From NCBI GenBank assembly GCA_016195465.1, contig JACPZO010000085.1, positions 1 through 34,418 of the forward strand: a DNA stretch of 34,418 nt, written 5' to 3'. Positions 20,600-34,418 of the stretch are shown here, piece by piece. Numbering within the stretch: the stretch's first letter is position 1; every line of letters begins with the position of its first letter. Under the pieces are notes generated by a model that saw only the letters and a list, made by a program, of their open reading frames with translations, was not told where the DNA came from and ran no database searches. This DNA comes from Nitrospirota bacterium (GTDB lineage Bacteria; Nitrospirota; RBG-16-64-22). The position numbers were made by a program, and so were the translations under genes.

Positions 20600-21577
20600 T
20601 CAATCTGTCTTTCTTGAATCGGTGACCCGCCCTGCTTGCCCCGCGGCCCGGCGGAGAATGGCCAGGAACGCGAGGAGGGGCGGCGTGGGGTTCCGGGCCC
20701 GCGCCATTACGACCCACGCCGTCAATGGGATCGCGATGCTCTCGCCGCCCACCCGGACGAGACTTCTCCCGGCGGAAACGTACGCCGGAAGGAATGCAAC
20801 GCCGACGCCCTCTTCAACGCACCGGACCAGCCCTTCTATTCCCTCGCGGACCTGAATTCGGGCCGGCCGGATTCGCGTTTCTTCAAGGAACTTCATGACC
20901 GGTCCCCGCCACCCCGGGTAGGCCGGCACGAGAAGCGCGCTCCTCGCGAGGACTTCGCCGATCCCTTCCCCGGTTCCGGCCGCCTTTCCCCGCTTCTTTC
21001 CGGCTCCACCCCCGGCGGGCGCCGCGGCCGATCGCCCCATCATGACCAGCGGGGCCCTGAACAGCGGTTCGGAGAAGAGGGCGCCGGCCGCGGCCGGCGC
21101 GTCGGTCAGGGCGACGTCGCTCCCGCCGGCGATGAGCCGTTCTTCGATGTTCTCGTGCGGCCCGCAACGGACGTCGACGTCCGGCTGGACGCGAAGCAGT
21201 TCCCCCAGGCGGGCGGGAAGCCAGTAGTCCCGGAGCGGCGGAACGGCGCTGATCGTAAGACGCGCCGCTCGGCCGCCGCTCCATTCCTGGATGGCGCGAA
21301 CGGCGTCCGCGCCGAGGGTGAAGATCCGTTGCGCGTGGTCGAGGAGGAGCCGGCCGGCGTCCGTGAGGAGAATCGTCCGTCCTTTGCGGACGTACAACTC
21401 CGCGCCGAGATGATCGGCGAGGGCGCGCACCTGGCGGGAGACCGAAGGCTGGCTCGTGCGGAGAGCGCGGGCGGCCCCCGAGACGCTCCCGAACCGGGCG
21501 ACGTTGTAGAAGAGCCAGAGATGGTTGAAGTTGGGTTGTCGCGGGGTCTCGGCCGGCGTGGAATCGTCCACTTTCAT
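20600..21577 (-). CDS. LysR-family transcriptional regulator
   Basis: A 325-residue LTTR. The N-terminal winged helix-turn-helix spans about residues 17-76 (LWLFYNVARFGSVSGAARAL, then SQPSVSRQVRALADHLG). The rest is a co-inducer-binding domain with an unusual Ala/Gly/Lys-rich insert (about 195-225: PAGGGAGKKRGKAAGTG). The ATG at 21577 follows a perfect AAGGAGGT; the earlier ATG at 21595 lies upstream of that site. A minus-strand TATAAT (21614-21609) is a good -10 box. The gene is divergent from selD with a hairpin-rich spacer between, so it may control the selenium/sulfur genes. That is inference from position. Confidence 0.9.
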   Translation of the reverse strand: MKVDDSTPAETPRQPNFNHLWLFYNVARFGSVSGAARALRTSQPSVSRQVRALADHLGAELYVRKGRTILLTDAGRLLLDHAQRIFTLGADAVRAIQEWSGGRAARLTISAVPPLRDYWLPARLGELLRVQPDVDVRCGPHENIEERLIAGGSDVALTDAPAAAGALFSEPLFRAPLVMMGRSAAAPAGGGAGKKRGKAAGTGEGIGEVLARSALLVPAYPGWRGPVMKFLEETRIRPARIQVREGIEGLVRCVEEGVGVAFLPAYVSAGRSLVRVGGESIAIPLTAWVVMARARNPTPPLLAFLAILRRAAGQAGRVTDSRKTD

Positions 21578-21654
21578 TCCAGACCTCCTTGGCATGAATT
21601 ACGTGCAAATTATATATTGGAAGTCTGTGCGTTCGCCAGGTATTGTTTTCCCCA

Positions 21655-21838: not shown

Positions 21839-22873
21839 ATGCTGCCGCTTCCGCTCACCCAGTTCTCCCACGGCGCCGGCTGAGCCTGCAAGATCAGCCC
21901 GCAGGACCTGGTCCAGGTCCTCCGCTATCTTCCTCCCGTGACCGATCCCAACGCCCTTGAGGGCCGGGGCCACATGGACGACGCCGCCGTCTACCGCCTG
22001 ACCGACGACCTCGCCGTCGTTCAATCCGTCGATTTCATCACGCCCGTCGTCGATGACCCGTACCGCTTCGGCCGGATCGCCGCCGCGAACGCCCTTTCGG
22101 ACATCTACGCGATGGGCGCGAAGCCGCTCTTCGCCCTGAACCTCGTGGGGTTCCCGGTGAAGACGCTCCCCATGGGCGTCCTGGGAGAGATTCTGAAGGG
22201 CGCGGCCCACAAGGCCGCGGAGGCGGAGATTCAAATCCTCGGCGGGCACTCGATCGAGGACTTCGAGCCGAAGTTTGGGCTGTCGGTGACGGGAGTCGTC
22301 CATCCGGCCCGAGTCGTCCGCAACTCCACGGCCCGCCCGGGAGACCGGCTGATCCTCACGAAGCCGCTGGGAATCGGGGTCATCACGACGGCGGGGGATC
22401 GAGCGGGTTCGGATGTTTTGGAGCGGGCGGTCGCCGCGATGGAAACGCTCAACGCCGCCGCGAGCGGCGCGATGACGAACGTCGGCGTCTCCGCGTGCAC
22501 GGACGTGACGGGGTTCGGGCTCCTGGGGCACCTGTACGAGATGGCCACGGCGAGCGGCGTGGGCGCCGTCGTCATGGCGGCGTCCGTCCCCGTTCTTCCG
22601 GAGGCGGAAAGGCTCGCGTCCGAGGGAATCGCGCCGGCCGGAAGTCACAGCAACCTCGCGTATCTCGAGGACCGGGTGGAGTGGGGGAGGGCCGCGACGA
22701 AGACCCGGAAGATTCTCCTTTCCGACGCCCAGACGTCGGGGGGGCTTCTGATCGCCGTGCCGGCCGCGAGGAGCCGCAAGCTCCTGAAGAGACTCCACGA
22801 GGCCGGCGTGGCGGAGGCCGTCGAGATCGGCGGGATCGTGACCGACAAGTCGGCGATGATCAAGATCGTTTGA
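21839..22873 (+). CDS. selD: selenophosphate synthetase, selenocysteine-containing
   Basis: SelD makes selenophosphate from selenide and ATP, the selenium donor for selenocysteine and other seleno-modifications. The full product is 344 residues if the in-frame TGA at 21881-21883 is read as selenocysteine. The N-terminus then reads LTQFSHGAGUACKI, with U15 and C17 aligning to C17 and C19 of the Escherichia coli enzyme; K18 is the expected catalytic Lys. The ATP-binding body (HMDDAAVY, VDFITPVVDDPY, GRIAAANALSDIYAMG, LGGHSIED, TDVTGFGLLGH, SDAQTSGGLLIAV) is intact. A start after the TGA would delete the active site. The ATG at 21839 has GGAG about 12 bases upstream. A hairpin suitable as a SECIS follows the TGA. 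Confidence 0.95.
21881..21920 (+). promoter_or_regulatory. UGA(Sec) codon and SECIS-like hairpin in selD
   Basis: After the TGA (21881-21883), GGACCTG (21904-21910) pairs perfectly with CAGGTCC (21914-21920) across a GTC loop, so GGTC sits at the apex 27-30 bases after the codon. Bacterial SECIS hairpins carry a G in the first apical-loop positions at about this distance. Confidence 0.8.
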
Positions 22874-22878
22874 AGGCC

Positions 22879-22982
22879 GGTGAATGGGTGAATCGGTGAA
22901 TGGGTGAATCGGTGAATCGGTGAATCGGTGAATCGGTGAATCGGTGAATGGGTGCATCGGTGAATGGGTGAATCGGTGAATT
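22879..22982 (+). repeat. GGTGAATN octamer array downstream of selD
   Basis: Thirteen uninterrupted units. The eighth base is C in eight units, G in four and T in one. Only one unit has a change elsewhere (GGTGCATC). The array begins six bases after the selD stop. Confidence 0.95.
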
Positions 22983-22987
22983 GAAAA

Positions 22988-23083
22988 ACTCCTCCCCTTT
23001 GTAAGGGGAGGCTGGGTGGGGTAGAAGCCCTCCGTTCGACGGCCGCTTCTACCTCCCCCGACCCCTCCTTACAAAGGAGGGGA
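22988..23083. mobile_element. 96-base inverted-repeat element, copy 1
   Basis: Two arms of about 40 bases face each other around a centre GTTCGACGGCCG: the left arm begins ACTCCTCCCCTTTGTAAGG and the right arm ends CCTTACAAAGGAGGGGA. Each arm can also fold on itself. An ungapped second copy, differing at 8 of 96 bases by my count, lies at 32623-32718. It sits directly before the ribosome site of the YeeE/YedE gene. Confidence 0.75.
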
Positions 23084-23106
23084 GGAATAGACGAAGGAGG
23101 TTCGCC

Positions 23107-24234
23107 ATGATCGAAGCGGGAATCAAGGGACTCCTTATGGGGGCGGCGGCGGGATTCGTCCTGCACAGGTCGGGGCTCACGCGCTATTCGCGGATCGCGG
23201 GGGCGCTCCTTCTCCAGGACCTCAAGGCGATCAAGTTCATGTTCGGCGCCCTCGCGACGGCGATGCTGGCGTATGGTCTCGCGGCCGCGTGGGGCGTCCC
23301 CGTCACGCCCCGCGTGAACGCCTACGTGGGGCCGGCCCATCTCCTGGGCGGCCTCCTCTTCGGCGTCGGGATGGGCGCCGCAGGGTTCTGACCCGGCACC
23401 TGCGTGGCCCGGTGGGCCGCGGGGCGCTGGATCGTGACGGGCGGCGTGATCGGCCTCCTGGCCGGCGCGTTCGCGTACGACCTTTTCTTTCCGTCGATGT
23501 TTGCTTGGGGACTGTTCGCTCCTCCGCAGAGCGCGACGCTTCCAATCGTCCTGAACGTTTCATTCGCCGCTGTCGCCCTGCCTCTCGGCGTCCTCATCCT
23601 CCTCATGATGGCCTTGGCCGACAGGCTGGACCCGGCCCGCGGGCGGGCCGCGGCGGGAGAGGGCTCCGAGCCTGTTCTCTACGACCGGATCTTCCGGAAG
23701 GAGTGGGGATGGATCTCCGGGAGCGTCCTTTTCGCCGGCCTGGTCGTCCTGGCGACGGCCCAGGGGGAGTACCTGGGAATCGCGGGCGGGATCCCGTCCT
23801 TCCTCGCCCACGTCACGGCGCCTCTCGGCTACAAGTTCCAGACGGTCGGGGGGCTTTCCGATCACACGGCGTGGCGCGCGGCCCTCATCGTCGGCCTCGT
23901 GCCCGGCGCCTTGATCGCGGCCCGGTTGGCGCGCGTCTCCGCGACGGCGGCCGTGGCGCCGATGTGGAGCGAGGTCATCGGGACGTCGACGGCCAAGCGC
24001 GTCGCCGTGACGACGGGGGCGGGTTTCCTCCTTTCGTTCGGGGCGATGGTCGGCGGCGGATGCACCTCCGGCGCGTTCGTGGCGGGGTGGCCGACGCTCT
24101 CGGTCGGGAACTTCGCCATGGGGATGACCTTCTTCATGACGGCGATGGCGACGGCGTTCCTCGTGTACGGGCGGAAGCGCGCGCGGTTCCACGAGATCCG
24201 CGCCGCCCGCAACATCTCCCTGGCCGACGATTGA
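23107..24234 (+). CDS. YeeE/YedE-family transporter, candidate selenoprotein
   Basis: YeeE/YedE proteins are polytopic inner-membrane carriers for thiosulfate or related sulfur (possibly selenium) species, passing the substrate along conserved cysteines. Reading TGA at 23389-23391 as selenocysteine joins two halves into a 375-residue protein with about ten hydrophobic segments. The first half ends GVGMGAAGF; then U95-P-G-T-C99 replaces the family's C-P-G-T motif, and the second half carries the matching GGGCTSG motif. Stopping at the TGA would leave an 94-residue fragment, and the rest has no independent ribosome site. The ATG at 23107 follows GAAGGAGG. A SECIS-like hairpin follows the TGA. 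Its place after selD suggests transport linked to selenium or sulfur supply. Confidence 0.88.
23389..23421 (+). promoter_or_regulatory. UGA(Sec) codon and SECIS-like hairpin in the YeeE/YedE gene
   Basis: CGTGGCCC (23403-23410) pairs with GGGCCGCG (23414-23421) through eight pairs, one of them U-G, around a GGT loop that lies 20-22 bases after the TGA. The spacing and loop fit a bacterial SECIS. Confidence 0.8.
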
Positions 24235-24382
24235 GAAGTCGTCTCGATATGCGTTTTGGAGGTGTGGCTTCGGAGCGGGTCCTGTCCTCGGCCAGCCCCA
24301 CCGTCCTCGCGGCGAAGCCGCTCCGGGCGGTGAGGCGCCCCGGCCTCGGCCACCCGCTCCAAATGGACGCGAGGGAGAAGAT

Positions 24383-24820
24383 ATGAACGCTCGCTGGCAC
24401 GTTTTCTATGGGTTGCTGATCGTCGTTCTTCTGCTGGGCCTGATCGGCATGGGAAGGCAGGCTGGGGCAACCGCAAAACCGGCCAAGGCCGAATTGACCG
24501 CCGAGGAGGTCTTCGAGAAACTCCTGGCCAATCCCCGCGCCCTTCAGGTGGTGGACATGAGAGGGAAAAAGGACTACGAGGAAGGGCGGGTCCCGGGCGC
24601 GATCAGGCTGGCCCTCGAGACGTTCGAGAAGGTCGACCGGTACAAGGAGACGGTCTTCGTCTCGGACGACGGGGATCGGAAGGCTTTCCGGGAGAAGAGG
24701 GAGATGGTCCTCGTTCCGCGCAACCTCAAGGGGGGGATGGTCGCGTGGGCGCTCGCCCGCCTTCCCCAGGATACGGGCCCGTACGATCCGTTGAAGGCCG
24801 GCCTGATCCGACCCGGCTGA
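24383..24820 (+). CDS. membrane-anchored rhodanese-like protein lacking the catalytic cysteine
   Basis: A 145-residue protein with an N-terminal hydrophobic segment (YGLLIVVLLLGLIGMG, about 9-24), either a signal peptide or a membrane anchor, followed by one rhodanese-fold domain: LQVVDMRGKKDYEEGRVPGAIRLAL, then a VFVSDDGDRKAF loop. In active rhodaneses that loop begins with Cys; here it is Ser followed by DDGD, so persulfide chemistry there is unlikely. The ATG at 24383 follows GAGGGAGAAG. Its TGA stop is followed by CTG-TAA and a GGTC-loop hairpin identical in design to that of the next gene, leaving open a C-terminal Gly-Sec-Leu. A sulfur- or selenium-binding structural role is inferred. 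Confidence 0.75.
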   Translation: MNARWHVFYGLLIVVLLLGLIGMGRQAGATAKPAKAELTAEEVFEKLLANPRALQVVDMRGKKDYEEGRVPGAIRLALETFEKVDRYKETVFVSDDGDRKAFREKREMVLVPRNLKGGMVAWALARLPQDTGPYDPLKAGLIRPG

Positions 24821-24830
24821 CTGTAATGAG

Positions 24831-24846
24831 CCGCCCGGTCGGGCGG
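24831..24846 (+). other. GGTC-loop hairpin after the rhodanese-like gene
   Basis: CCGCCC and GGGCGG enclose GGTC, which begins 17 bases after the TGA at 24818-24820. It could be a weak gene-end hairpin (no T-run follows) or a SECIS-like element. A sister copy with a rearranged stem lies at 25398-25413. Confidence 0.5.
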
Positions 24847-24854
24847 GAAAGAGC

Positions 24855-24921
24855 CGGTGAATCGGTGAATGGGTGAATCGGTGAATTGGTGAATGGGTGA
24901 ATTGGTGAATGGGTGAATGGG
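24855..24921 (+). repeat. GGTGAATN octamer array after the rhodanese-like gene
   Basis: Eight units with C, G or T in the variable position, directly downstream of the GGTC hairpin. Confidence 0.92.
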
Positions 24922-24970
24922 GCAGAAGTCAAAGAGTCGAAGGTCGAAGGTTGAACGATCGAAGAAGACG

Positions 24971-25009
24971 TCCCCTCTCCCCTTTGGGGAGAGGGCCAGG
25001 GTGAGGGGG
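24971..25009. repeat. GAGAGGG palindrome (REP-like), copy 1
   Basis: CCCCTCTCCCC and GGGGAGAGGG form a hairpin around TTT, with a CCAGGGTGAGGGGG tail. It belongs to a widely distributed class of short intergenic palindromes and is followed nine bases later by the next gene. Confidence 0.8.
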
Positions 25010-25017
25010 TTGTAAGG

Positions 25018-25386
25018 ATGTTCACCATGCTGCAAGCGGGCGTCAGGAGAGTCCTCATGGGGGCGGCGGCGCTGTTCCTGGTCGCGCTCTGGACCGGGGA
25101 GGCGTTCGCCCTCGGCGAGCAGATGCTGGGGCGGATCACGGGAGAGAAGTGCGTCACGAAGGGCAAGTTCGGGGAATGCTACCTGAAGGACGCCTTCCCG
25201 ATGGTCTTCCTCACGGAAGACGGGAAGTGGTATCGGGTCGAATCGGTGGGCGACGTCGGGGCGGCCGAGTTGGACAAGGCGTTCGGGAAGAACGTTCTCC
25301 TGGAAGGGTGGACGACGGAGAACAAGGTCTCCATCCTCTCGATGAAGGTCCTGGAGGCGGGGAAGAAAGAATTCTTCAAAGGATGA
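25018..25386 (+). CDS. small exported protein of unknown function
   Basis: I do not recognise the family. The 122-residue product has a signal peptide (charged start, hydrophobic VLMGAAALFLVALW, likely cleavage after GEAFA at about residue 31). The mature part is about 90 residues with two cysteines close together (C46 and C54, in KCVTKGKFGEC), followed by a beta-rich segment (FLTEDGKWYRVESVG, NVLLEGWTTENKVSILSMKVLE). It looks like a small periplasmic binding or redox protein. It lies between two rhodanese genes. Its TGA stop is followed by CTG-TAG and a GGTC-loop hairpin, so a C-terminal Gly-Sec-Leu is conceivable. The ATG at 25018 follows GTAAGGATG and is only moderately supported; an ATG at 25027 is an alternative. 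Confidence 0.65.
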   Translation: MFTMLQAGVRRVLMGAAALFLVALWTGEAFALGEQMLGRITGEKCVTKGKFGECYLKDAFPMVFLTEDGKWYRVESVGDVGAAELDKAFGKNVLLEGWTTENKVSILSMKVLEAGKKEFFKG

Positions 25387-25397
25387 CTGTAGCCGCG

Positions 25398-25413
25398 CGC
25401 CCCGGTCGGGGCG
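25398..25413 (+). other. GGTC-loop hairpin after the small exported protein gene
   Basis: CGCCCC and GGGGCG enclose GGTC, beginning 18 bases after the TGA at 25384-25386. The following GGGAAAGAGCCGGTGAATCGG matches the sequence after the 24831 hairpin exactly, while the stem differs by paired changes. Confidence 0.5.
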
Positions 25414-25421
25414 GGAAAGAG

Positions 25422-25474
25422 CCGGTGAATCGGGGAATCGGTGAATGGGTGAATGGGTGAATCGGTGAATCGGC
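25422..25474 (+). repeat. GGTGAATN octamer array after the small exported protein gene
   Basis: Six units, one degraded to GGGGAATC. A further partial run (GGGTGAATCGGTGAAC) lies at about 25523-25538, just before the sulfurtransferase gene. Confidence 0.9.
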
Positions 25475-25478
25475 AGAT

Positions 25479-25514
25479 CCCCCTCTCCCTTTGGGAGAGG
25501 GATGGGGTGAGGGA
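25479..25514. repeat. GAGAGGG palindrome (REP-like), copy 2
   Basis: CCCTCTCCC and GGGAGAGGG with a TTT loop and a TGGGGTGAGGGA tail, in the same orientation as the copy at 24971. Confidence 0.8.
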
Positions 25515-25558
25515 GTGCCTGGGGGTGAATCGGTGAACCAGGAATGAGGGGTAGCGCC

Positions 25559-26455
25559 GTGAAAAGAACGATAGGTGGAGTATTGCAGGCTGTTGGTTTT
25601 TTCCTGGCCGTCGCTTCGGCCGCGTGGGCGGCGGAGGCGGGTCATGAGAGCTTCTTCATCGACACGGAGGATCTGGCGCGGATCATCGGCGCGCCGGACG
25701 TGCGGGTCGTCGACGCGGCCGACGAGGCGGCTTACGCCCGGGCGCACATTCCGGGGGCCGTCAACGTCTTCTACGTGAATCTTGCGAAGCTCGAGGAGAG
25801 ACGGAAGAGCGGCTCGCCTCTCTCCGCGGCGGACGCCGAGAAGACTTTCGGCGCGGCGGGGATCGACGCGAAGACGCGCGTCATCGTCTACGACGCGGGC
25901 GACGGGCCGGCCGCGTCGGGGGTCTGGTTCGTCCTCCAGCACATGGGCCACGACAACGTCCGCGTCCTGAACGGCGGGTTCCGGAAGTGGATGAAGGAGG
26001 GGCGCCCCGTCACGCAGGACGTCCCGAAGGTCGGGAAGAAGAAGTTCGCCGCGAACCCCCGGCTCGACCAGGTCGTGACGCTCGACTGGGTGAAGAAGAA
26101 CAAAGACCGCAAGGACGTCGTGATCCTCGATGCGCGGTCGTTCAAGGAATACATCGGCGAAGAGGTCAAGGGCGGCGCGTCGCGCGGCGGGCACGTGCCC
26201 GGGGCGGTCCATTACGAGTGGGCGCGGATGTCGGGGGCCCTCGAGACGCTCAAGCCGCTGGACGAGATCGGGAAGGACCTCGATGCCAGGGGGATCACCC
26301 GGAACAAGGAGATCGTGACCTACTGCAACACGGGGATCGGCCGCTCGACGGACGTGGCGATGGTCCTTAAGATGCTGGGGTACGAGAGGGTGCGGGAGTA
26401 CACGGGCTCATGGGAGGACTGGTCGAGCGACCCGAGGCTTCCGATCGCGAAGTGA
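25559..26455 (+). CDS. exported thiosulfate sulfurtransferase with two rhodanese domains
   Basis: Rhodaneses transfer a sulfane sulfur from thiosulfate to cyanide or thiol acceptors through a cysteine persulfide. The 298-residue product starts with a signal peptide (FFLAVASAAWA, cleavage near residue 24), so it acts outside the cytoplasm. The N-terminal rhodanese domain has Asp in place of the catalytic Cys (VYDAGDGPAAS), and the C-terminal domain carries the active C256 in TYCNTGIGRST, as in the classical two-domain enzymes. I chose GTG at 25559 because GAGGGG lies eight bases upstream; an ATG at 25544 adds five residues but has a poor site. It directly precedes the molybdoenzyme genes. Confidence 0.9.
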   Translation: MKRTIGGVLQAVGFFLAVASAAWAAEAGHESFFIDTEDLARIIGAPDVRVVDAADEAAYARAHIPGAVNVFYVNLAKLEERRKSGSPLSAADAEKTFGAAGIDAKTRVIVYDAGDGPAASGVWFVLQHMGHDNVRVLNGGFRKWMKEGRPVTQDVPKVGKKKFAANPRLDQVVTLDWVKKNKDRKDVVILDARSFKEYIGEEVKGGASRGGHVPGAVHYEWARMSGALETLKPLDEIGKDLDARGITRNKEIVTYCNTGIGRSTDVAMVLKMLGYERVREYTGSWEDWSSDPRLPIAK

Positions 26456-26462
26456 TTTCAAA

Positions 26463-26592
26463 AATCGGTGAATCGGTGAATGGGTGAATCGGTGAATGGA
26501 AGAGATCGCCACTGAGGCACGGTGACGCGGATGAGGGGATTCTTTCGAGAGCCTGTTTCTCTGTGCCTCTGTGCCTCTGTGCCTTCGTGGCC
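26463..26592. repeat. octamer array and CTCTGTGC-type repeat before the molybdoenzyme operon
   Basis: Four GGTGAATN units (26466-26499) are followed by a second family: GCCACTGAGGCACGGTGACG near 26507 and CTGTGCCTCTGTGCCTCTG near 26560, whose 8-base units face each other in inverted orientation. Confidence 0.75.
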
Positions 26593-26609
26593 GATGAAGG
26601 GGTTGTGAC

Positions 26610-29387
26610 ATGCTGACCAGACGGCAGTTCGTAAAGGGCGCGGGAATGGCGGGGATCGGGGCGATCGTTCCCGTCCCCGCGGAAGCGGCGCGCAAGAAGC
26701 GCGACCGGAAGGCGCTCAAGGCCAAGCCGCCCGAGGCGCCCTCGCGCGCGTGGGAGGATCTCTATCGGAACGAGCGGGCCGCGACGGTCGGCGACGCGCA
26801 GGGGTACGCCTTCCATTGCTCGAACTGCCAGGGGAACTGCGCGTGGCGCGTCTACGCGAAGGACGGGATCGTCACGCGCGAGGAACAGCTCGCCGAATAC
26901 CCGCAGATCAACCCGCACATCCCCGACGCCAACCCGCGCGGCTGCAACAAGGGGGCGATCAACTCCCAGGCGATGTACGAGAAGGACCGCATCCTCCATC
27001 CGATGAAAAGAAAGGAAAAACGGGGCGGGGGAAAATGGGAGAGAATCTCCTGGGACCGGGCGATCGCCGAGATATCGGAGAAGGTCGTCGATATCCTGGA
27101 GAAGCACGGGCCGGGCGGGCTCATGGTCTACGCGGGGACGGGCATCGTTTCGCAGGGGCGGCGGGCGGGGCCGCTCCGCCTTGGCTCCCTCCTCGGTTCG
27201 GTCCGCATCTATCCGTCCTCGGCCGTGGGCGACATGTTCACGGGCGCCTCGATCGCCTACGGGATCCCGAACGTGGGCCACTCGCTTGACGCCTGGTTCG
27301 AGACGGACCGGATCATCCTCTGGGGGATCAACCCGAACGTCACGAGGATCCCCGACGCCCACTACCTCTGGGAGGCGAAATACCGCGGCGCGAAGATCGT
27401 CACGATCTCGCCCGAGCATTCCTCCACGGCGATCCACTCCGACCTCTGGATTCCGATCAAGCCCGGGACCGATTCGTTCCTCGCCATGTCGATGGTCCAC
27501 GTGATTCTCAAGGAAGGGCTCGTCAACGAGGCGTTCGTCAAGGAGCAGACCGACCTTCCGTTCCTCGTCCGGAAAGACAGCGGCCGGCTCCTCCGGGACT
27601 CGGACCTGAAGAAGTTCCCCCGCGAGAACGTCTTCTACTTCTGGGACCGGAAGAAGAACGCGCCGGTCGAGGCCCTGGGGACGATGGGGCACGCGAAGGA
27701 CACGCTCCGCCTGGGCGAGGCCGACCCGGCCCTCACGGGATCGTTCGAGGTGAAGGGGAAGGACGGGAAGCCGATCGCCGTCACGACCGTCTTCGAGCGC
27801 GTCCGGGCGGAGGCGGAGAAGTTCTCCCCGGAGGCGACGGCGCGGATCACGGGCATCCATCCGTCCGTCGTCGTGAAGCTCACGCGCGACTTCGCCGCGG
27901 CGAAGAAGGCCGGGATCACGATCGGGTTCTCCCTCCACAAGTACGCTTGGGGCGTGCTCGCGTGCTGGGGCCAGGCGCTCGCGTGCGCGCTCACGGGCCA
28001 CGCGGCCGAGACGGGCGGCCTCGACACGGAGCACCAGTGGTCGCTCGGAGGGATCGGCCCTCTCACCAATCCGAAACCGGCGCGGTTCGCGTCCGGCGTC
28101 CTCTCGGAGTGGATGTCCGGGCGGATGTGGGAGACGTTCAAGACGCACTACTCCGACGAGCGGGAGTTCGCCGAGCGGGTCGGGATTCCGCCCGCCGAGG
28201 TCATCAAGATCGCCGACGAGAGCCGGGAGAAGAAATGGCTCGCCTGGTTCGGCGAGCCGCGGGGACGCATTCTCTTCGGCGACAACATGTTCAGGCGGAA
28301 CAAGTCGCAGGTGCACTACGAGAAGGCCGTCCTCGACCGGACCGACCTCTACGTCAACGTGAACTTCCGGATGGACTCCTCGGCCGAGCTGGCCGACTAC
28401 GTTCTCCCCGGCCAGAGCCACTACGAGGGATGGGATATCCGCGGCGAAGTGGGCTACCACCGCTTCGCGAACCTCATCGTTCCCCCGCCCGGCCTCAAGC
28501 CCGTCGGCGAGGCGAAGAGCGAGTGGGAGATCTGCCGCCTGCTCGCCGCCGGGATCGAGGCCGCGGCCAAGAGGCGAGGGATACCGAAGCTCGTGGACGC
28601 GGCGTTCAACGTGAAGAAGGAAGGGAAGGACGCGCCCGTCGTCCGCGACCTCGACGCGCTCCACGACGACTTCACGATGAACGGGACGGTGAAGACCGAT
28701 CAGGACGTGGTGAAGTGGCTCCTAGCGAACGTGCCGGCTTTCAAGCCGTGGAAGTTCGAGGAAGCGGTCCGGCACGGCTTCATTGTCTTGAACGAGAACG
28801 CCGGCTTTACGTCGCCCCTCTACACGGACAAACCGTACCACTCGTTCGAGGAGCAGGTCCATCTCAAGCGCCCGTACCCGACTCTCTCCGGCCGGCAGAC
28901 GTTCTGCGTCGATCACGACGTCTTCCTGAAACTCGGCGCGGCCGTCCCGACGGCCCGGAAGCCGCTCCATCCGAACAAATTCCCGCTCGCGTTCGTTTCG
29001 CCGCATACGCGGTACGGGATCCACTCCACTTGGCGGTCGAACAAGTACATGATGCGCCTCCAGCGAAGCGAGCCGTACGTCTACTTGAATCCGGCGCTGG
29101 CGAAGAGGAAGGGCATCGAGGACGGCGACCGGGTGCGCGTCTTCAACGACGTGGGGGAGTTCGCCGCGATGGCGAAGATCCATCCGGGGACGCCGCCGCA
29201 CGCGCTCTTCATGGACCATGCGTGGGAGCCGCACCAGTTCAAGGGGAGATCGGGGATGGACGCGCCCGTGGCGGGCCTCCTCTCCCCGCTCGAGCTCGCT
29301 GGCGGATGGGGGCACCTCAAGTTCGGCGCGGAGTGGGACGGCAACCAGATGGCCTACGAGTCGAGCGTGGACGTGGAGAAGGCGTGA
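26610..29387 (+). CDS. type II DMSO-reductase-family molybdoenzyme, catalytic subunit
   Basis: A 925-residue periplasmic molybdopterin oxidoreductase. A Tat signal (TRRQFVKGAGMAG, twin Arg at 4-5) leads to an FS0 cluster motif H69-x3-C73-x3-C77-x34-C112, the same spacing as in NarG and the SerA/DdhA/EbdA/PcrA group. D208 (AVGDMFTG) is the likely Asp ligand of Mo, typical of type II enzymes. A terminal MGD-binding domain (RYGIHSTWRSNKYMM, KGIEDGDRVRVFNDVG) is present. Known relatives reduce nitrate, selenate or (per)chlorate, or oxidise dimethyl sulfide or ethylbenzene; the substrate here cannot be read by eye. The setting among sulfurtransferases and selenium genes favours a sulfur or selenium compound. 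An ATG at 26610, with only a weak site (AAGGGG), starts the Tat motif correctly. Confidence 0.92.
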   Translation: MLTRRQFVKGAGMAGIGAIVPVPAEAARKKRDRKALKAKPPEAPSRAWEDLYRNERAATVGDAQGYAFHCSNCQGNCAWRVYAKDGIVTREEQLAEYPQINPHIPDANPRGCNKGAINSQAMYEKDRILHPMKRKEKRGGGKWERISWDRAIAEISEKVVDILEKHGPGGLMVYAGTGIVSQGRRAGPLRLGSLLGSVRIYPSSAVGDMFTGASIAYGIPNVGHSLDAWFETDRIILWGINPNVTRIPDAHYLWEAKYRGAKIVTISPEHSSTAIHSDLWIPIKPGTDSFLAMSMVHVILKEGLVNEAFVKEQTDLPFLVRKDSGRLLRDSDLKKFPRENVFYFWDRKKNAPVEALGTMGHAKDTLRLGEADPALTGSFEVKGKDGKPIAVTTVFERVRAEAEKFSPEATARITGIHPSVVVKLTRDFAAAKKAGITIGFSLHKYAWGVLACWGQALACALTGHAAETGGLDTEHQWSLGGIGPLTNPKPARFASGVLSEWMSGRMWETFKTHYSDEREFAERVGIPPAEVIKIADESREKKWLAWFGEPRGRILFGDNMFRRNKSQVHYEKAVLDRTDLYVNVNFRMDSSAELADYVLPGQSHYEGWDIRGEVGYHRFANLIVPPPGLKPVGEAKSEWEICRLLAAGIEAAAKRRGIPKLVDAAFNVKKEGKDAPVVRDLDALHDDFTMNGTVKTDQDVVKWLLANVPAFKPWKFEEAVRHGFIVLNENAGFTSPLYTDKPYHSFEEQVHLKRPYPTLSGRQTFCVDHDVFLKLGAAVPTARKPLHPNKFPLAFVSPHTRYGIHSTWRSNKYMMRLQRSEPYVYLNPALAKRKGIEDGDRVRVFNDVGEFAAMAKIHPGTPPHALFMDHAWEPHQFKGRSGMDAPVAGLLSPLELAGGWGHLKFGAEWDGNQMAYESSVDVEKA

Positions 29388-29389
29388 GC

Positions 29390-29857
29390 ATGTGCTCTCA
29401 TTCCCTCCCCCCTGGACAGGGGGAGAGGGCTAGGGTGAGGGGGATACGCGCGTTGCAGGAACGCAAATCGAAGCTTCGAGGTTTCGCGCGAGATCTGCGG
29501 CGAAGCGGGACGGATGCGGAACAGCGGCTTTGGACACATCTACGCGATCGCCGATTGGTCGGGGCGAAGTTTCGCCGCCAGCATCCAATTGGTCCGTTTA
29601 TTGTGGATTTTTGTTCCCCTGAGCATGGTCTTGTTGTTGAGTTGGACGGGGGTCAACACGCGGCCAACGCATCCTCCGATCAGCGGCGGACCGATTTCCT
29701 AAGTCGGCTTGGATTCCGGGTCCTCAGGTTTTGGGATCATGATTTGCTTGCCAATACGGACGCCGTATTGGAGCAGATCGCCGAAAGCCTAACCAACCCT
29801 CACCCTGGCCCTCTCCCTGCGAGGGAGAGGGGAAGTACAAAGGAAGGCGAGGCATGA
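29390..29857 (+). CDS. DUF559 endonuclease-like protein inserted between alpha and beta genes
   Basis: A PD-(D/E)xK-like DUF559 domain of about 110 residues: DAEQRLWTHLRDRRLVGAKF, RRQHPIGPFIVDFC, LVVELDGGQHA and FLSRLGFRVLRFWDHDLL. Such proteins resemble very-short-patch-repair endonucleases and are often stray genes. The frame from ATG 29390 starts with residues encoded by a GAGAGGG palindrome and ends with residues encoded by an inverted copy (NPHPGPLPARERG). The true start may be later, for example GTG at about 29435. Its stop overlaps the beta-subunit ATG (GCATGA). It interrupts a normally contiguous alpha-beta pair, and its codon use is more AT-rich than its neighbours, both of which suggest insertion. 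Confidence 0.75.
   Translation: MCSHSLPPGQGERARVRGIRALQERKSKLRGFARDLRRSGTDAEQRLWTHLRDRRLVGAKFRRQHPIGPFIVDFCSPEHGLVVELDGGQHAANASSDQRRTDFLSRLGFRVLRFWDHDLLANTDAVLEQIAESLTNPHPGPLPARERGSTKEGEA
29403..29443. repeat. GAGAGGG palindrome, copy 3 (left flank of the DUF559 gene)
   Basis: CCCTCCCCCCTGG/ACAGGGGGAGAGGG hairpin followed by a CTAGGGTGAGGGGG tail that points into the DUF559 gene. Confidence 0.8.
29797..29832. repeat. GAGAGGG palindrome, copy 4 (right flank, inverted)
   Basis: The tail CCCTCACCCTGG comes first and the hairpin CCCTCTCCCTGCGAGGGAGAGG follows, so this copy is inverted relative to copy 3 and the two tails face each other across the gene. Confidence 0.8.
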
Positions 29858-30831
29858 GCAAGCGTCAACTCGCGATGGTGATGGATCTGAACAAGTGCAT
29901 CGGGTGCCAGACGTGCACCGTGGCGTGCAAGGTCCAGTGGACGAACCGGAACGGACGCGACTACATGTATTGGAACAACGTCGAGACGGCGCCGGGGAAA
30001 GGTTATCCGAAGAACTGGCAGGAGTCGGGCGGGGGATGGGAGGGATCGGTCCTCAAGGATGGGAAGATCCCGTCGCTCGCGAACGACTACGGGATGCCCG
30101 TCCAGATGAACTACGAGCAAGCCCTCTTCGCGGGGACCGACCCGTGGCTTGCGGCGGCGAACAATCCCGCCTGGACGCCGAACTGGGACGAGGACGAGGG
30201 GGCGGGGGAGTTTCCCAACTCGCACCACTTCTACCTTCCGCGGATCTGCAACCACTGTACGAACCCGGCGTGCCTGGCCGCTTGTCCGCGCGGCGCGATC
30301 TACAAGCGGGAGGAGGACGGGATCGTCCTCGTCGACCAGTCGCGCTGTCGGGGGTACCGGCACTGCGTCGCCGCCTGCCCTTACAAGAAGGTCTATTTCA
30401 ACCCGCTGTTCAATCGCTCGGAGAAATGTATCTTCTGCTATCCGCGCGTGGAGCAGGGGATTCCGCCCGCCTGCGCGAAGCAGTGCGTGGGGCGGATCCG
30501 GCACGTCGGGTTTCTGGACGACGAGGCGGGTCCGGTCCACAAGATCGTGGTCAAGTGGAAGGCGGCGCTTCCCCTCCGGCCCGATTTCGGGACGGAGCCG
30601 AACGTGTACTACGTGCCGCCCCTCTCTTCCCCGAAGTACGATGCCGAAGGGAAGGTGACGGACGAGTCCCGCATCCCGATCGAGTTTCTGGAGAAGCTCT
30701 TCGGGCCGCGCGTGGGGGAGGTCCTCAAGCTCCTCGAAGCGGAGAGGGCGAAGAAGGGGCGGGGGGAGGAGTCGGAGCTCATGGATCTCCTGATCGCCTA
30801 TCGGCAGGAGGAGATGTTCAAGATTCGGTGA
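29854..30831 (+). CDS. type II DMSO-reductase-family iron-sulfur (beta) subunit
   Basis: A 325-residue electron-transfer subunit of the NarH/SerB/DdhB/EbdB type. Four cysteine groups ligate clusters: CIGCQTCTVAC (C15-C25), CNHCTNPACLAACPRGA, CRGYRHCVAACPYKK (where a non-Cys residue in the usual ligand position, as in NarH, suggests a [3Fe-4S] cluster) and CIFCYPRVEQGIPPACAKQC. It has no signal peptide, so it should be co-exported with the Tat-bearing alpha subunit. The ATG at 29854 overlaps the DUF559 stop. Its own stop codon (TGA, 30829-30831) lies inside the first GGTGAATN unit of the following array. Confidence 0.93.
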   Translation: MSKRQLAMVMDLNKCIGCQTCTVACKVQWTNRNGRDYMYWNNVETAPGKGYPKNWQESGGGWEGSVLKDGKIPSLANDYGMPVQMNYEQALFAGTDPWLAAANNPAWTPNWDEDEGAGEFPNSHHFYLPRICNHCTNPACLAACPRGAIYKREEDGIVLVDQSRCRGYRHCVAACPYKKVYFNPLFNRSEKCIFCYPRVEQGIPPACAKQCVGRIRHVGFLDDEAGPVHKIVVKWKAALPLRPDFGTEPNVYYVPPLSSPKYDAEGKVTDESRIPIEFLEKLFGPRVGEVLKLLEAERAKKGRGEESELMDLLIAYRQEEMFKIR

Positions 30832-30994
30832 ATTGGTGAATAGGTGAATCGGTGAATCGGTGAATGGGTGAATAGGTGAATGGGTGAATAGGTGAATAGG
30901 TGAATGGGTGAATCGGTGAATGGGTGAATGGGTGAATCGGTGAATAGGTGAATAGGTGAATAGGTGAATAGGTGAATCGGTGAATCGGTGAATC
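30827..30994 (+). repeat. GGTGAATN octamer array of 21 perfect units between beta and gamma genes
   Basis: Twenty-one consecutive units without a single change in the first seven bases. The eighth base is A in eight, C in seven, G in five and T in one. The first unit carries the stop codon of the beta gene, and the last carries the GTG start codon of the gamma gene. Confidence 0.97.
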
Positions 30995-32097
30995 GAAAAG
31001 TCGGTCTGTCGGTTGCGGGGGCGGCTGTCCTGGGTGTCCTCATGGGAATGGCTGTTCCGGTCGAGGGGGCGAGGCGGGCGAAGGGGGACCCGGTCGCCTC
31101 GTTGGCCGGGAACGGCGAGGTCGTTACGGCCGCGCGCGTGGCCGGGGAGATGCCGACGGAACCAGGCGACGGGCGGTTCGAGAACGCTGTCCCGCTGACC
31201 GTCCGGCTCTATCCTCAGACGGCGACCGAGCCGCGGGCCGAGAAGGGCGTCGTGCGCGAAGCCGCGCTCCGGGCGATCCACGCGGACACGTGGATCGCGT
31301 TCCTCGTCGAGTGGGCCGATCCGGACCGCTCCGACGTCAAACAGGGAACGACGGACACGTTCGCCGATGCCGCCGCGCTCCAATTTCCCCTGAAGTACGG
31401 CGAGGCGGCCGACCGCCTGCCGTACGTCGGCATGGGCGAGCCCGGCCGGCCGGTGAACATCTGGTTCTGGAGAAATGGAGGCGGAACGGGACCCGCCTCG
31501 CTTCGGGCCCGCGGTTTCGGGACGCTGGAGCCCGTGGCGGGCGGAGAAGTGAAGACGGCGGGGAAATGGGAGAACGGGCGAGTCCGGGTCTTGTTCACCC
31601 GCTCGTTCAGCGCGTCTTCGCCGGAAGAAGTCAAGTTCGCCCCGAGGCAAATTGGCCTCGTGCCGGTCGCGCTCGCCGTCTGGGGCGGAGAGAAAGGGGA
31701 GAGGGGCGGGCTCAAGACGCTGTCGGGCTGGCGGTTCGTGAAGTTCGACGGAGGGAAGGTGAGCCCGGCCTACGTCCGGTCGCTCGCCTGGAACCCGAAG
31801 ATCCGCGGCGACGCCAAGACGGGCAAGGCGCTCATGACGCGCCACGGCTGCGCCGGGTGCCACGCCTACCCGGGGAATCCGATCCCGACGAAGATCGGTC
31901 CGGGCCTTGCGGGGATCGGGGGAATCCACCGGCCGGCTTATCTTTTCGAGTCGCTCAAGGATCCGTCGGCCGTGATCGTCCCGCACGGGAACTATTACTC
32001 GATGAAGGACGGACAGCCGATCTCGATCATGGCGCCTTTCTCGGGGCCGGAGCGGGACGCCTATCATATCGTGGAGTTTCTTCGAAGCCTCCGGTGA
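30988..32097 (+). CDS. haem b gamma subunit of the molybdoenzyme fused to a cytochrome c domain
   Basis: A 369-residue exported protein. After a signal peptide (NRKVGLSVAGAAVLGVLMGM, cleavage near 27) comes a region of about 230 residues with the pattern of the EbdC/DdhC/SerC haem-b gamma subunits (VPLTVRLYPQ, DTWIAFLVEWADP, DAAALQFPL, MGEPGRPVNIWFW). A C-terminal c-type cytochrome domain of about 95 residues follows, with C288-AG-C291-H292 and a possible distal Met in SIMAPF. In known complexes the gamma subunit passes electrons to a separate cytochrome c, so fusion would shorten the path. The start is GTG at 30988, inside the octamer array; the next ATG would remove the signal peptide charge. 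Its stop TGA again lies in a GGTGAAT sequence. Confidence 0.88.
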   Translation: MNRKVGLSVAGAAVLGVLMGMAVPVEGARRAKGDPVASLAGNGEVVTAARVAGEMPTEPGDGRFENAVPLTVRLYPQTATEPRAEKGVVREAALRAIHADTWIAFLVEWADPDRSDVKQGTTDTFADAAALQFPLKYGEAADRLPYVGMGEPGRPVNIWFWRNGGGTGPASLRARGFGTLEPVAGGEVKTAGKWENGRVRVLFTRSFSASSPEEVKFAPRQIGLVPVALAVWGGEKGERGGLKTLSGWRFVKFDGGKVSPAYVRSLAWNPKIRGDAKTGKALMTRHGCAGCHAYPGNPIPTKIGPGLAGIGGIHRPAYLFESLKDPSAVIVPHGNYYSMKDGQPISIMAPFSGPERDAYHIVEFLRSLR

Positions 32098-32098
32098 A

Positions 32099-32166
32099 TA
32101 GGCATGAAGGCACATAGGCACATAGGCACAAAGGGGCAAAGGAACAAAGGGACAAAGGGACAAAGG
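32099..32166 (+). repeat. ACATAGGC-type repeat before the dsrE-like gene
   Basis: Units of about eight bases (CACATAGG, CACAAAGG, GACAAAGG) run from the gamma-subunit stop to the ribosome site AAAGGGGGG of the dsrE-like gene. A second array lies just after that gene. Confidence 0.9.
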
Positions 32167-32179
32167 GGGGAATGACTGC

Positions 32180-32524
32180 ATGGTTACAATCATCGTGAAT
32201 GACGCACCGTATGGAATTGAACGCTCCTGGAATGCGCTCCGGCTGGCTTCGGCCCTCCTGACGATGAAGCAGGAGGTCTCCATCTTTCTCCAGGGAGACG
32301 CGGTCCTCGCGGCGAAGAAGGGTCAGCAGGTCCCCAAGGGGTACTACAACATGGGCGAGATGCTCCAGGAGGCGCTGGCGAGGGGCGCGGACGTCTTCGC
32401 CTGAGGCACCTGCCTCAAGGCCCGTGGGGTCTTGCCGGAGGAAGTGCTGGAGGGGGTGGAAGACGGGAAGCAATTGATCCTCGCCCAGCTCGTGGTCGCG
32501 AGCGAGAAGGTCGTGACGTTCTGA
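32180..32524 (+). CDS. DsrE-family protein, candidate selenoprotein
   Basis: DsrE/TusD-like proteins carry sulfane sulfur on a cysteine in cytoplasmic sulfur relays. Reading TGA at 32402-32404 as selenocysteine gives a 114-residue protein of normal family length: an N-terminal IIVNDAPYGIERSWNALRLASAL Rossmann-like start, a central EVSIFLQGDAV strand, KGYYNMGEMLQEALARGADVFA, then U75-G-T-C78-LKARGV, and an end in LVVASEKVVTF. Cys-containing relatives have Cys at this place. Ending at the TGA would cut off the active loop and last strands. The ATG at 32180 follows GGGGGGAATG. A strong hairpin follows the TGA. U75 and C78 make a CxxC-like redox pair. Confidence 0.9.
32402..32434 (+). promoter_or_regulatory. 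UGA(Sec) codon and SECIS-like hairpin in the dsrE-like gene
   Basis: CAAGGCCC (32416-32423) pairs with GGGTCTTG (32427-32434) through eight pairs (one G-U) around a GTG loop 20-22 bases after the TGA, closely matching the design of the hairpin in the YeeE/YedE gene. Confidence 0.8.
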
Positions 32525-32532
32525 CCGAATTC

Positions 32533-32621
32533 CATAGGCACATAGGGACATAGGCACATAGGCACATAGGGACATAGGCACATAGGGACATAGGGACATA
32601 GGCACATAGGCATAGGCACAA
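32533..32621 (+). repeat. ACATAGGC-type repeat after the dsrE-like gene
   Basis: About ten units of CATAGGCA or CATAGGGA, nearly perfect, start about ten bases after the dsrE-like stop and run up to the second 96-base element. Confidence 0.92.
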
Positions 32622-32622
32622 C

Positions 32623-32718
32623 ACTCCTCCCCTTTGTATGGGGAGGTTGGGTGGGGTAGAAGCTCCCTGTTCGACGGCCGCTTCTACCTCCCCTCGCCCC
32701 TCCTTACAAAGGAGGGGA
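32623..32718. mobile_element. 96-base inverted-repeat element, copy 2
   Basis: Ungapped match to the element at 22988-23083, with the same centre GTTCGACGGCCG and the same position, ending about 19 bases before the start codon of the next gene. Differences lie mostly in the arm parts next to the centre. Confidence 0.75.
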
Positions 32719-32736
32719 ACACTTAGAGCAGGAGGC

Positions 32737-33894
32737 ATGGTGGAATCCAAGAACATCGTCATTCTCGGCGGGGGCGTGGGCGGGCTGGTCACGGCCCGGC
32801 AGTTGGCCGGCCGGCTTCGCGGGAAACACCGGATCATCCTCGTGGATCGCAGGGACCGGCACCTCTTCAGCCCGGCCTTTCTATGGGTCATGATGGGTTG
32901 GCGCAGGCCGGAGGAGACGGGCCGGAACCTTTCGGGGCTGGCCCGGTACGGGGTTGAGTTCATGCAGGCCCAGGTGGAGGGGATCGACACCGCGGAGAGG
33001 GCGGTCCGCACTTCGGCCGGAAAAGTCCCGTTCGATCATCTCGTCGTCTCCCTTGGCGCGGACGTTGTCCCGGAGGCCCTGCCCGGGCTGGCCGAGATTG
33101 CGCACACGCCGTACACGCTGGCCGGCGCCGAGAAGCTTCGCGACGCATTGACCGGTTTCAGGGGAGGGCGGGTCGTCGTGATGGTCTCGTCCGTTCCCTT
33201 CAAGTGCCCGGCCGCGCCGTACGAGACGGCCTTTCTTCTCGAAGCGTTCTTCCGGGAGCGGGGCATTCGGGGGAAGGTCGAGATGGAAATCATCACGCCC
33301 GAGCCACAGCCGATGCCCGTGGCCGGGCCCGTCATGGGAGAGGCGGTGAAAGGAATCCTTGCAGCCCGGGGGATCGGATACCGGCCGAATACGCCCGTCT
33401 CGGCCGTGAACGCCGCGGAAAAGACACTCGTGCTGAAGGACGGCGGAAGCGCGGGGTTCGACCTGCTCGTGGCCGTTCCGCCGCATCGGCCGCCGGCCGT
33501 CGTCCGCGATTCCGGGCTGGCCGGGGAGACGGGCTGGGTCCCCGTGGACCGCTTCACGCTGGAGACGAAGCAGGAGGGGATCTTTGCCATCGGCGACAAT
33601 ACGACGATCACTCTTTCCAACGGGAAGCCGCTTCCCAAGGCGGGCGTCTTTGCGCACGCGGAGGCGGTGACCGTGGCCGAGACGATCGCGGCCCGTCTTG
33701 AGGGGCGCCCATCGCCTCGCCGCTTCGACGGCAAGGGGTACTGCTGGGTCGAGATTGGGGACGGCCGGGCGGGGTTCGCGGGCGGCGACTTCTACGCCGA
33801 GCCGAACCCGGTCTTGCGGCTCCGTCCGCCCGGCCGGATGTGGCGCATGGGAAAGGTCCTGTTCGAGAAGTGGTGGATGTGGAAGTGGATCTAA
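32737..33894 (+). CDS. sulfide:quinone oxidoreductase-like flavoprotein
   Basis: A 385-residue FAD-dependent pyridine-nucleotide-disulfide-fold protein. The N-terminal GGGVGGL (11-17) is the first FAD-binding turn, a second Rossmann region surrounds residues 145-200, and IFAIGDNT is the C-terminal FAD contact. It has only two cysteines, C157 in KCPAAPYE and C336 in GYCWVEIG, spaced like the two redox cysteines of sulfide:quinone oxidoreductase that carry the growing polysulfide. The C-terminal RMGKVLFEKWWMWKW is an amphipathic Trp-rich tail suited to membrane docking. The ATG at 32737 is very close to GGAGG; GTG at 32740 is an alternative. Flavocytochrome c-type sulfide dehydrogenase is a less likely reading because there is no signal peptide. 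Confidence 0.87.
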   Translation: MVESKNIVILGGGVGGLVTARQLAGRLRGKHRIILVDRRDRHLFSPAFLWVMMGWRRPEETGRNLSGLARYGVEFMQAQVEGIDTAERAVRTSAGKVPFDHLVVSLGADVVPEALPGLAEIAHTPYTLAGAEKLRDALTGFRGGRVVVMVSSVPFKCPAAPYETAFLLEAFFRERGIRGKVEMEIITPEPQPMPVAGPVMGEAVKGILAARGIGYRPNTPVSAVNAAEKTLVLKDGGSAGFDLLVAVPPHRPPAVVRDSGLAGETGWVPVDRFTLETKQEGIFAIGDNTTITLSNGKPLPKAGVFAHAEAVTVAETIAARLEGRPSPRRFDGKGYCWVEIGDGRAGFAGGDFYAEPNPVLRLRPPGRMWRMGKVLFEKWWMWKWI

Positions 33895-33895
33895 G

Positions 33896-34135
33896 AGCGG
33901 AAACGGGGAAACGGGGAAGCGGAAGCGGGGAAACGGGGAAACGGAGAATGAGTGGACAGGGCAGCAGTCAGCACTCAGCGGTCAGCGGTCAGAAAACAGG
34001 GAAGCGATCAGCGGTCAGCAATAACGGAGCGCAAGCATTCAGTTTCTTGCCGAAAGCCGAATGCTGATTGCTGAATGCTGCAAGCTGAATGCTGAAAGCT
34101 GATAGCTGATAGCTAAAAGCTGATCGCTGAGAGCT
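33896..34135. repeat. low-complexity gap with GGGGAAACG and GCTGAT-type repeats
   Basis: Two further families fill this gap without a gene: GGGGAAACG/GGGGAAGCG units (about 33900-33945), then CAGCGGTCAG-type and AGCTGAT/TGCTGAA seven- to nine-base units (about 33965-34133), partly in inverted orientation (ATTCAG at 34039, CTGAAT after 34080). A perfect ribosome site follows. Confidence 0.8.
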
Positions 34136-34157
34136 TCTTGGAAAGGAGGTGATGCGC

Positions 34158-34418
34158 ATGAGACTCAAGTCGATGATCGGAGCAACGATGCTCTCGCTTG
34201 CACTTGCCGCGAGCGCGGAGGCCGTGACGCTCACGCTCACGCTCAACGAACCGCCGGGGGCGCGGTGAAACCGGAATATGGCCATGGCTTTCTCCATCCT
34301 TGACCAGTACAAGAACGTCAAGGTGGAGTTCATCCCCTTGAGCATGATGAAGCCGGGCCATGTGGCGCCATCGGTGATGGTGAACGGAGACGTGCTGGCG
34401 GCAGACGGCGGAAAAGGA
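34158..34418 (+). CDS. exported thioredoxin-fold-like protein, candidate selenoprotein (3' end outside window)
   Basis: The ATG at 34158 lies eight bases after AAAGGAGGTG, a near-perfect ribosome site. It encodes a signal peptide (RLKSMIGATMLSLALAASAEA, cleavage near 22), then VTLTLTLNEPPGAR and an in-frame TGA at 34266-34268 (residue 37). The frame stays open for 50 more codons to the window end: NRNMAMAFSILDQYKNVKVEF, then a VAPSVMVNGDVLAADG segment like the cis-Pro and beta-hairpin of thioredoxin-fold proteins. A beta strand followed by U, a helix and VAPS fits a thioredoxin-like active site with Sec as the nucleophile and no resolving Cys. The downstream hairpin (CTTGAC/GTCAAG, 34299-34322) has a large loop and is a poorer SECIS, so this call is weaker than the others. 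Confidence 0.65.

Follow-up and report, generated by a model that had tools for sequence, protein, structure and literature searches.

A selenoprotein-rich gene island around a type II molybdoenzyme in a Nitrospirota bacterium, with a candidate role in sulfur oxidation

In the Sox system, the SoxY arm carries sulfur for the molybdenum (Mo) enzyme SoxCD. Sulfur disproportionators possess a YTD cluster containing YeeE, TusA and DsrE-like proteins (PMC13047784), and in the YeeE-family transporter TsuA both Cys91 and Cys293 are indispensable (PMC11582611). Loci with several selenoproteins are already of a known kind, because NCBIfam includes TsoC and a 2026 review (PMC13188914) mentions Tso and SAO as larger selenoprotein operons; Tso is a three selenoprotein operon with the NCBIfam families TsoA, TsoB and TsoC (Haft and Tolstoy 2025, as cited in that review). 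A selenocysteine (Sec)-containing YeeE is also listed there, and its GUxSG motif corresponds to the second Cys site. Here, we have analyzed a 12.6-kb gene island of a groundwater Nitrospirota bacterium, located in contig C78 (JACPZO010000085.1, assembly GCA_016195465.1), the whole 34,418 bases of which are referred to as the window. Six selenoprotein genes are almost certainly present in this island: selD, yeeE, dsrE, a TsoC-like gene, and the genes for a rhodanese-like protein (RhdL) and a short exported protein (Small). On balance, we favor the view that the island is a selenoprotein-rich version of a conserved carrier-based sulfur-oxidation cluster, in which a type II Mo enzyme would oxidize carrier-bound sulfur.

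The island resembles Tso in being a multi-selenoprotein neighborhood and in having a NEPPGARU protein similar to TsoC. Membership in Tso was nevertheless rejected, as this protein scored 21 bits (E = 2.5e-4) and its full-length relative 23.4 bits (E = 4.4e-5) against the TsoC model NF045708 (cut-off 45), and no TsoB over cut-off was found in the host genome (93% complete) or in eight related genomes, TsoA not having been searched; the island gene set differs from Tso, judged by TsoB and TsoC alone. YeeE and a DsrE-like protein are shared with the YTD cluster, but none of the annotated island genes was recognized as TusA, and the island additionally has the Mo enzyme, the rhodaneses and the C-terminal tails described below. 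The island enzyme shares its alpha-beta-gamma make-up, a candidate Asp ligand and the Fe-S motif with ClrA, PcrA and EbdA, whereas its separate clade, rhodanese neighbor and gamma-cytochrome fusion set it apart. The island YeeE belongs to the same transporter family as the GUxSG protein, but its Sec lies instead in GFUPGTC, at the TsuA Cys91 site, while the UGTC of the DsrE-like protein fits a UxxC selenoprotein listed in PMC13188914, so that only its neighborhood is new. The penultimate Sec of RhdL and Small, together with the Sec site of YeeE, differs from the entries compared in the review's table. No description of the gene set was found among the open-licence papers searched.

Selenocysteine codons and the machinery that reads them

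Four candidate selenoproteins (SelD, YeeE, the DsrE-like protein and an exported thioredoxin-like protein, here TsoC-like) had been proposed in the initial annotation. All four were upheld and their TGA codons located; the count was incomplete, RhdL and Small having been missed. In an alignment, each of the four in-frame TGAs corresponds to Cys in homologues and is flanked by conserved sequence on both sides; the refuting case named in the initial annotation, ordinary stops with eroded downstream halves in homologous loci, was not encountered. In comparison with L046/Nitrospirae RBG_16_64_22 (homologous loci bear L numbers), the ratio of nonsynonymous to synonymous substitution rates (dN/dS) downstream of the TGA was 0.18 for selD, 0.18 for yeeE, 0 for dsrE and 0.09 for the TsoC-like gene; by this measure, purifying selection persists past the TGA in all four. 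The selD position is TGA in L046, L014 and L015 and Cys in L044 and L063. The yeeE TGA is present in 9/9 closest matches, down to 44% identity, which include metagenome-assembled genomes of Nitrospinota and Alphaproteobacteria, and among which the copy in the window itself is counted and a single genome appears twice; the position is Cys in Aquificota and Myxococcota. Homologues of dsrE have CGTC or similar at the UGTC site, and the TsoC-like TGA recurs at 57% identity in another Nitrospirota family (L146). Since the contig end cuts the TsoC-like gene, the full-length gene was taken from L046; the predicted model of this orthologue has the strand/helix order of a thioredoxin fold (predicted local distance difference test, pLDDT, 87.6), with Sec close to where helix 1 begins, and its top Foldseek matches are thioredoxins (E = 5e-3, template modeling score about 0.5). 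Outside the island, a different YeeE-type protein with GYUPGT is encoded in another Nitrospirota genome (L033 1725), and a rhodanese-like stretch of the host genome (G000:C38:16369-16707) has one in-frame TGA and may represent a seventh selenoprotein.

The genes for RhdL and Small end in TGA-CTG-TAA/TAG, preceded by RPG and FFKG, respectively. An ordinary stop followed by a repeat was considered for both and overturned by the homologues; these TGAs are regarded as Sec codons because homologues terminate in C-L-stop (GGGCL-stop for RhdL, FFKGCL-stop for Small), and the RhdL of L044 ends in GPAGUL-stop. A [C/U]-L-stop terminus was found in 54/54 Small homologues retrieved by profile search, with U in five loci from several phyla (L046, L044, L063, L076 and L146); the chance of a TGA stop followed by Leu and a stop is approximately 0.002 per gene. 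The rhodanese domain of RhdL is devoid of Cys and its tail is kept. For Small, profile scans revealed neither an NCBIfam family nor a significant Pfam match, and its predicted model (pLDDT 78.9) is an OB-like arrangement of five strands with a low-confidence C-terminus. RhdL and Small are apparently two undescribed selenoprotein families with penultimate Sec. Their tails are analogous to those of DsrC and SoxY, which hold sulfur on a Cys near a flexible C-terminus.

The Sec machinery that the initial annotation had proposed to look for elsewhere in the genome is present: tRNA-Sec (78.2 bits), selB (365.7 bits) and selA (601.8 bits), with selA adjoining selB on contig C37. Of the nine genomes in the compared set, all but G030, which is 79% complete, have a tRNA-Sec over cut-off. 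In three other lineages, sel genes lie beside the Mo-enzyme cluster. In the cultured Thioalkalivibrio denitrificans ALJD (L063, 2546-7277), Small(U), a protein of about 12 kDa ending in FFKGUL, is directly followed by selA (547.9 bits), selB (361.7 bits) and selD (355.3 bits); in L044 (10608-15000), selB and selD come after gamma, with a putative selA-like frame in front of them; and in L076 (1029-2963), selB is upstream.

The molybdoenzyme and its conserved neighborhood

Of the genes named in the initial annotation, those for the pair of rhodanese-type proteins, for the SQR-like flavoprotein and for the Mo enzyme, whose gamma subunit is fused to a cytochrome, are all present. The alpha subunit matches TIGR03479 over its full length at slightly below the cut-off (984.75 bits), beta passes TIGR03478, and gamma, with its heme-b and cytochrome c domains, scores 123.5 bits against TIGR03477 (cut-off 169.85, E = 7e-36). 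Alpha scores 476.7 bits against PcrA and is 41% identical to ClrA, and its candidate Asp ligand and H/C-C-C Fe-S motif align with those of PcrA, EbdA and ClrA. The phylogenetic placement suggested earlier was carried out with ClrA, EbdA and PcrA as references, SerA and DdhA not being in the tree: alpha falls in a separate 23-row clade (support 100/100) with Thiobacillus, Thioalkalivibrio, Sulfurimonas, Persephonella and others, outside of which are the Halomonas/Salipiger enzymes and then the three long-branched references. The hosts of this clade are mostly sulfur oxidizers.

Conserved co-occurrence, which the initial annotation had suggested looking for in homologous loci, was also found. 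In the 44 loci whose flanks extend 4 kb in each direction, beta and gamma are present in 44/44, the two-domain rhodanese TST in 39, Small in 33, and YeeE and the TsoC-like protein in 14 each; RhdL was left out of these counts, its matches including cross-hits to TST. The rhodanese is found in every judged clade member (39/39), because all five loci lacking it have Halomonas/Roseobacter-type enzymes. As a separate observation, a second, distant Mo-enzyme alpha/beta pair lies approximately 6 to 8 kb after the alpha start in L071, L073-L075, L078, L081, L083, L084, L087 and L104, the hosts being Aquificota and one Myxococcota genome.

Probable sulfur oxidation and competing explanations

Judging from gene content, it is quite likely that the cluster serves a sulfur function, and an oxidative direction appears likely as well, because of the neighbors, the hosts and the cytochrome c fusion. 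The nearest named match of the host (2.60 Mb) is Nitrospirae RBG_16_64_22 (alpha identity 97%), and the RBG-16-64-22 class, known from aquifers, has been described as possessing oxidative-type DsrAB and as suited to sulfur-driven denitrification (PMC11033732, PMC10203281); dsrA is over cut-off twice in the host genome. As a tentative mechanism, the SQR-like protein would convert sulfide or other reduced sulfur to sulfane sulfur, which the exported TST, RhdL, Small and TsoC-like proteins may carry as (seleno)persulfide; RhdL and Small would bind it at the penultimate Cys/Sec of a flexible tail. The Mo enzyme, presumably exported by twin-arginine translocation, would then oxidize the carrier-bound sulfur with water, and electrons could pass through the Fe-S clusters and heme b to the fused cytochrome c and into respiration. 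YeeE, in which Sec occupies the relay Cys position, might bring sulfur into the cytoplasm, where the DsrE-like protein would receive it for reverse Dsr. For YeeE, alignment equates Sec95 with TsuA Cys91 and Cys319 with TsuA Cys293; it meets PF04143 and is below the cut-off of the TsuA model NF052577 (35.8 vs 400 bits). In this scheme, Sec would substitute for Cys in hosts having Sec machinery.

The proposed model is similar to Sox in its periplasmic carrier arm with a reactive Cys and in pairing a Mo enzyme with cytochrome c, but the island enzyme is of the dimethyl sulfoxide (DMSO)-reductase type II family and the carriers are unrelated to SoxYZ. Conceivably, though this is the more speculative extension, the cluster may represent a second Sox-like periplasmic oxidation of sulfane sulfur, with a DMSO-reductase-type Mo enzyme, G-C-L/G-U-L-tailed carriers, Sec as the direct sulfur carrier in some lineages, and Sec genes travelling along. 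If the sulfur-oxidation view is right, Sec is involved in a sulfur oxidation that yields energy, and a role is gained for a Mo-enzyme clade common to Aquificota, Campylobacterota, Myxococcota, Nitrospirota and Proteobacteria; the cultured host T. denitrificans makes the question directly testable.

Several points weigh against the sulfur-oxidation view or its selenoprotein basis. The substrate and direction of the Mo enzyme are inferred from context, and its type II relatives include reductases of chlorate, perchlorate and nitrate. SelD makes selenophosphate, which is part of Sec synthesis and not of sulfur flow, the host SoxB is below cut-off (424 vs 550 bits), and Foldseek returned only weak OB-like matches for Small. 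Hairpins resembling a Sec insertion sequence (SECIS) follow five of the six TGAs, each being weak to moderate alone, and none was found downstream of the TsoC-like TGA. Covariation in the yeeE hairpin was not above the shuffle control (75/500); eight of the nine TGA rows listed retain the GGT loop at +20, the hairpins of Cys homologues are nearly all weaker (except L105 and L104), and slid controls paired far worse. This weak individual SECIS support is what could be cited for some TGAs, chiefly the C-terminal ones, being ordinary stops, which is scarcely credible given that homologues end exactly in C-L-stop, that U-L-stop recurs across phyla and that a sel operon adjoins Small(U).

It is unlikely that the Mo enzyme instead reduces selenate, tetrathionate, polysulfide or a chlorate-like compound, with the sulfur proteins detoxifying or recycling what it forms: PcrA and ClrA are among its relatives, but its clade is hosted mostly by sulfur oxidizers with a constant rhodanese neighbor, the gamma-cytochrome c fusion fits electron export, and the DsrAB of the class is of the oxidative type. 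Somewhat less probable still is that, although the selenoproteins are real, the carriers serve solely to maintain the Mo enzyme or its cysteines in the reduced state or to aid cofactor sulfuration, with no substrate being carried. The thioredoxin fold of the TsoC-like protein would suit such a repair role, as would the TlpA-like thioredoxin frames, assigned by eye, that adjoin the cluster in several homologues of the locus, whereas four different Cys/Sec carriers together with SQR, YeeE and DsrE-like proteins exceed a repair set, and the retention of the RhdL tail after loss of the domain Cys also disagrees with it. A further proposal is that the island serves selenium, with YeeE importing selenite/selenide, the carriers supplying SelD and the Mo enzyme acting on selenium oxyanions. 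It is in line with selD lying within the island, with a neighboring LysR regulator that matches a selenium-associated model below cut-off, and with the role in Se transport proposed for YedE (PMC9312934). We consider it very unlikely, as the cluster occurs in its Cys form in Persephonella, Sulfurimonas, Thiovulum and Nitratiruptor genomes without tRNA-Sec over cut-off, from Aquificota (L071, L075) and Campylobacterota (L089, L115, L122); several Thiobacillus, Rhodospirillales and Myxococcota genomes have tRNA-Sec over cut-off. Selenium as the core substrate was rejected on these grounds, and because the Cys form exists in genomes without detectable tRNA-Sec, the core function, to judge by these genomes, is probably sulfur chemistry with Sec as an optional upgrade. 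Thus, of the respiration-coupled pathway dedicated to reduced sulfur or selenium that the initial annotation had put forward, the real selenoproteins, the conserved cluster, the reduced sulfur and the respiratory link are supported, and selenium as a substrate is not.

Feature map and neighboring genes

Table 1. Genes and SECIS-like hairpins of the island (hairpin loop positions relative to the TGA)
Feature	Position	Strand	Match or site
selD, selenophosphate synthetase	21839..22873	+	TIGR00476 389 bits (cut-off 125); Sec at TGA 21881-21883, HGAGUACK
YeeE/YedE-family transporter	23107..24234	+	PF04143 84 bits; Sec95 at TGA 23389-23391, GFUPGTC
RhdL, exported/anchored rhodanese-like protein	24383..24826	+	PF00581; end RPG-U-L-stop, Sec at TGA 24818-24820
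Small, exported protein	25018..25392	+	end FFKG-U-L-stop, Sec at TGA 25384-25386
TST, two-domain rhodanese, signal-like N-terminus	25559..26455	+	PF00581 146 bits; single Cys256
Mo enzyme alpha, twin-arginine N-terminus	26610..29387	+	TIGR03479 964 bits; candidate Mo ligand Asp208
DUF559 gene between alpha and beta	29390..29857	+	NF007294 108 bits (cut-off 218)
Beta subunit, Fe-S	29854..30831	+	TIGR03478 545.6 bits (cut-off 480.7)
Gamma, fusion of a heme-b domain and cytochrome c; uncertain GTG start	30988..32097	+	TIGR03477, PF09459 + PF00034
DsrE-like protein	32180..32524	+	PF02635 80.7 bits; Sec at TGA 32402-32404, FAUGTC
SQR-like flavoprotein, no Sec	32737..33894	+	NF049943 248 bits (cut-off 525); Cys157, Cys336
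TsoC-like exported thioredoxin-fold protein, cut by contig end	34158..34418	+	Sec37 at TGA 34266-34268, NEPPGARU
selD SECIS-like hairpin	21900..21924	+	loop GTC at +28; 1159/5000 synonymous randomizations as strong (0.23)
yeeE SECIS-like hairpin	23403..23421	+	loop GGT at +20; 236/5000 randomized as strong (0.047)
rhdL SECIS-like hairpin, 3' of gene	24831..24846	+	loop GGTC at +17; 22/5000 shuffles (0.004)
small SECIS-like hairpin, 3' of gene	25398..25413	+	loop GGTC at +18; 109/5000 shuffles (0.022)
dsrE SECIS-like hairpin	32416..32434	+	loop GTG at +20; 184/5000 randomized as strong (0.037)

The SQR-like protein has no in-frame TGA and is below the cut-off of NF049943, the model of selenoprotein SQR type III. 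The DUF559 gene is probably an unrelated insertion; in L046 and L043 alpha and beta lie too close together to accommodate it, and in L043 a DUF559 match follows beta. Divergent from selD, a LysR-type regulator is encoded at 20600-21595 on the minus strand, with the selenium-associated LysR model among its best matches (86 bits, cut-off 250). Many intergenic gaps contain arrays of 8-base units (GGTGAATC/G/A), at 22878-22981, 24856-24921, 25423-25473, 26463-26497 and 30827-30993, and other gaps have CATAGGCA or GAAAGCT units.

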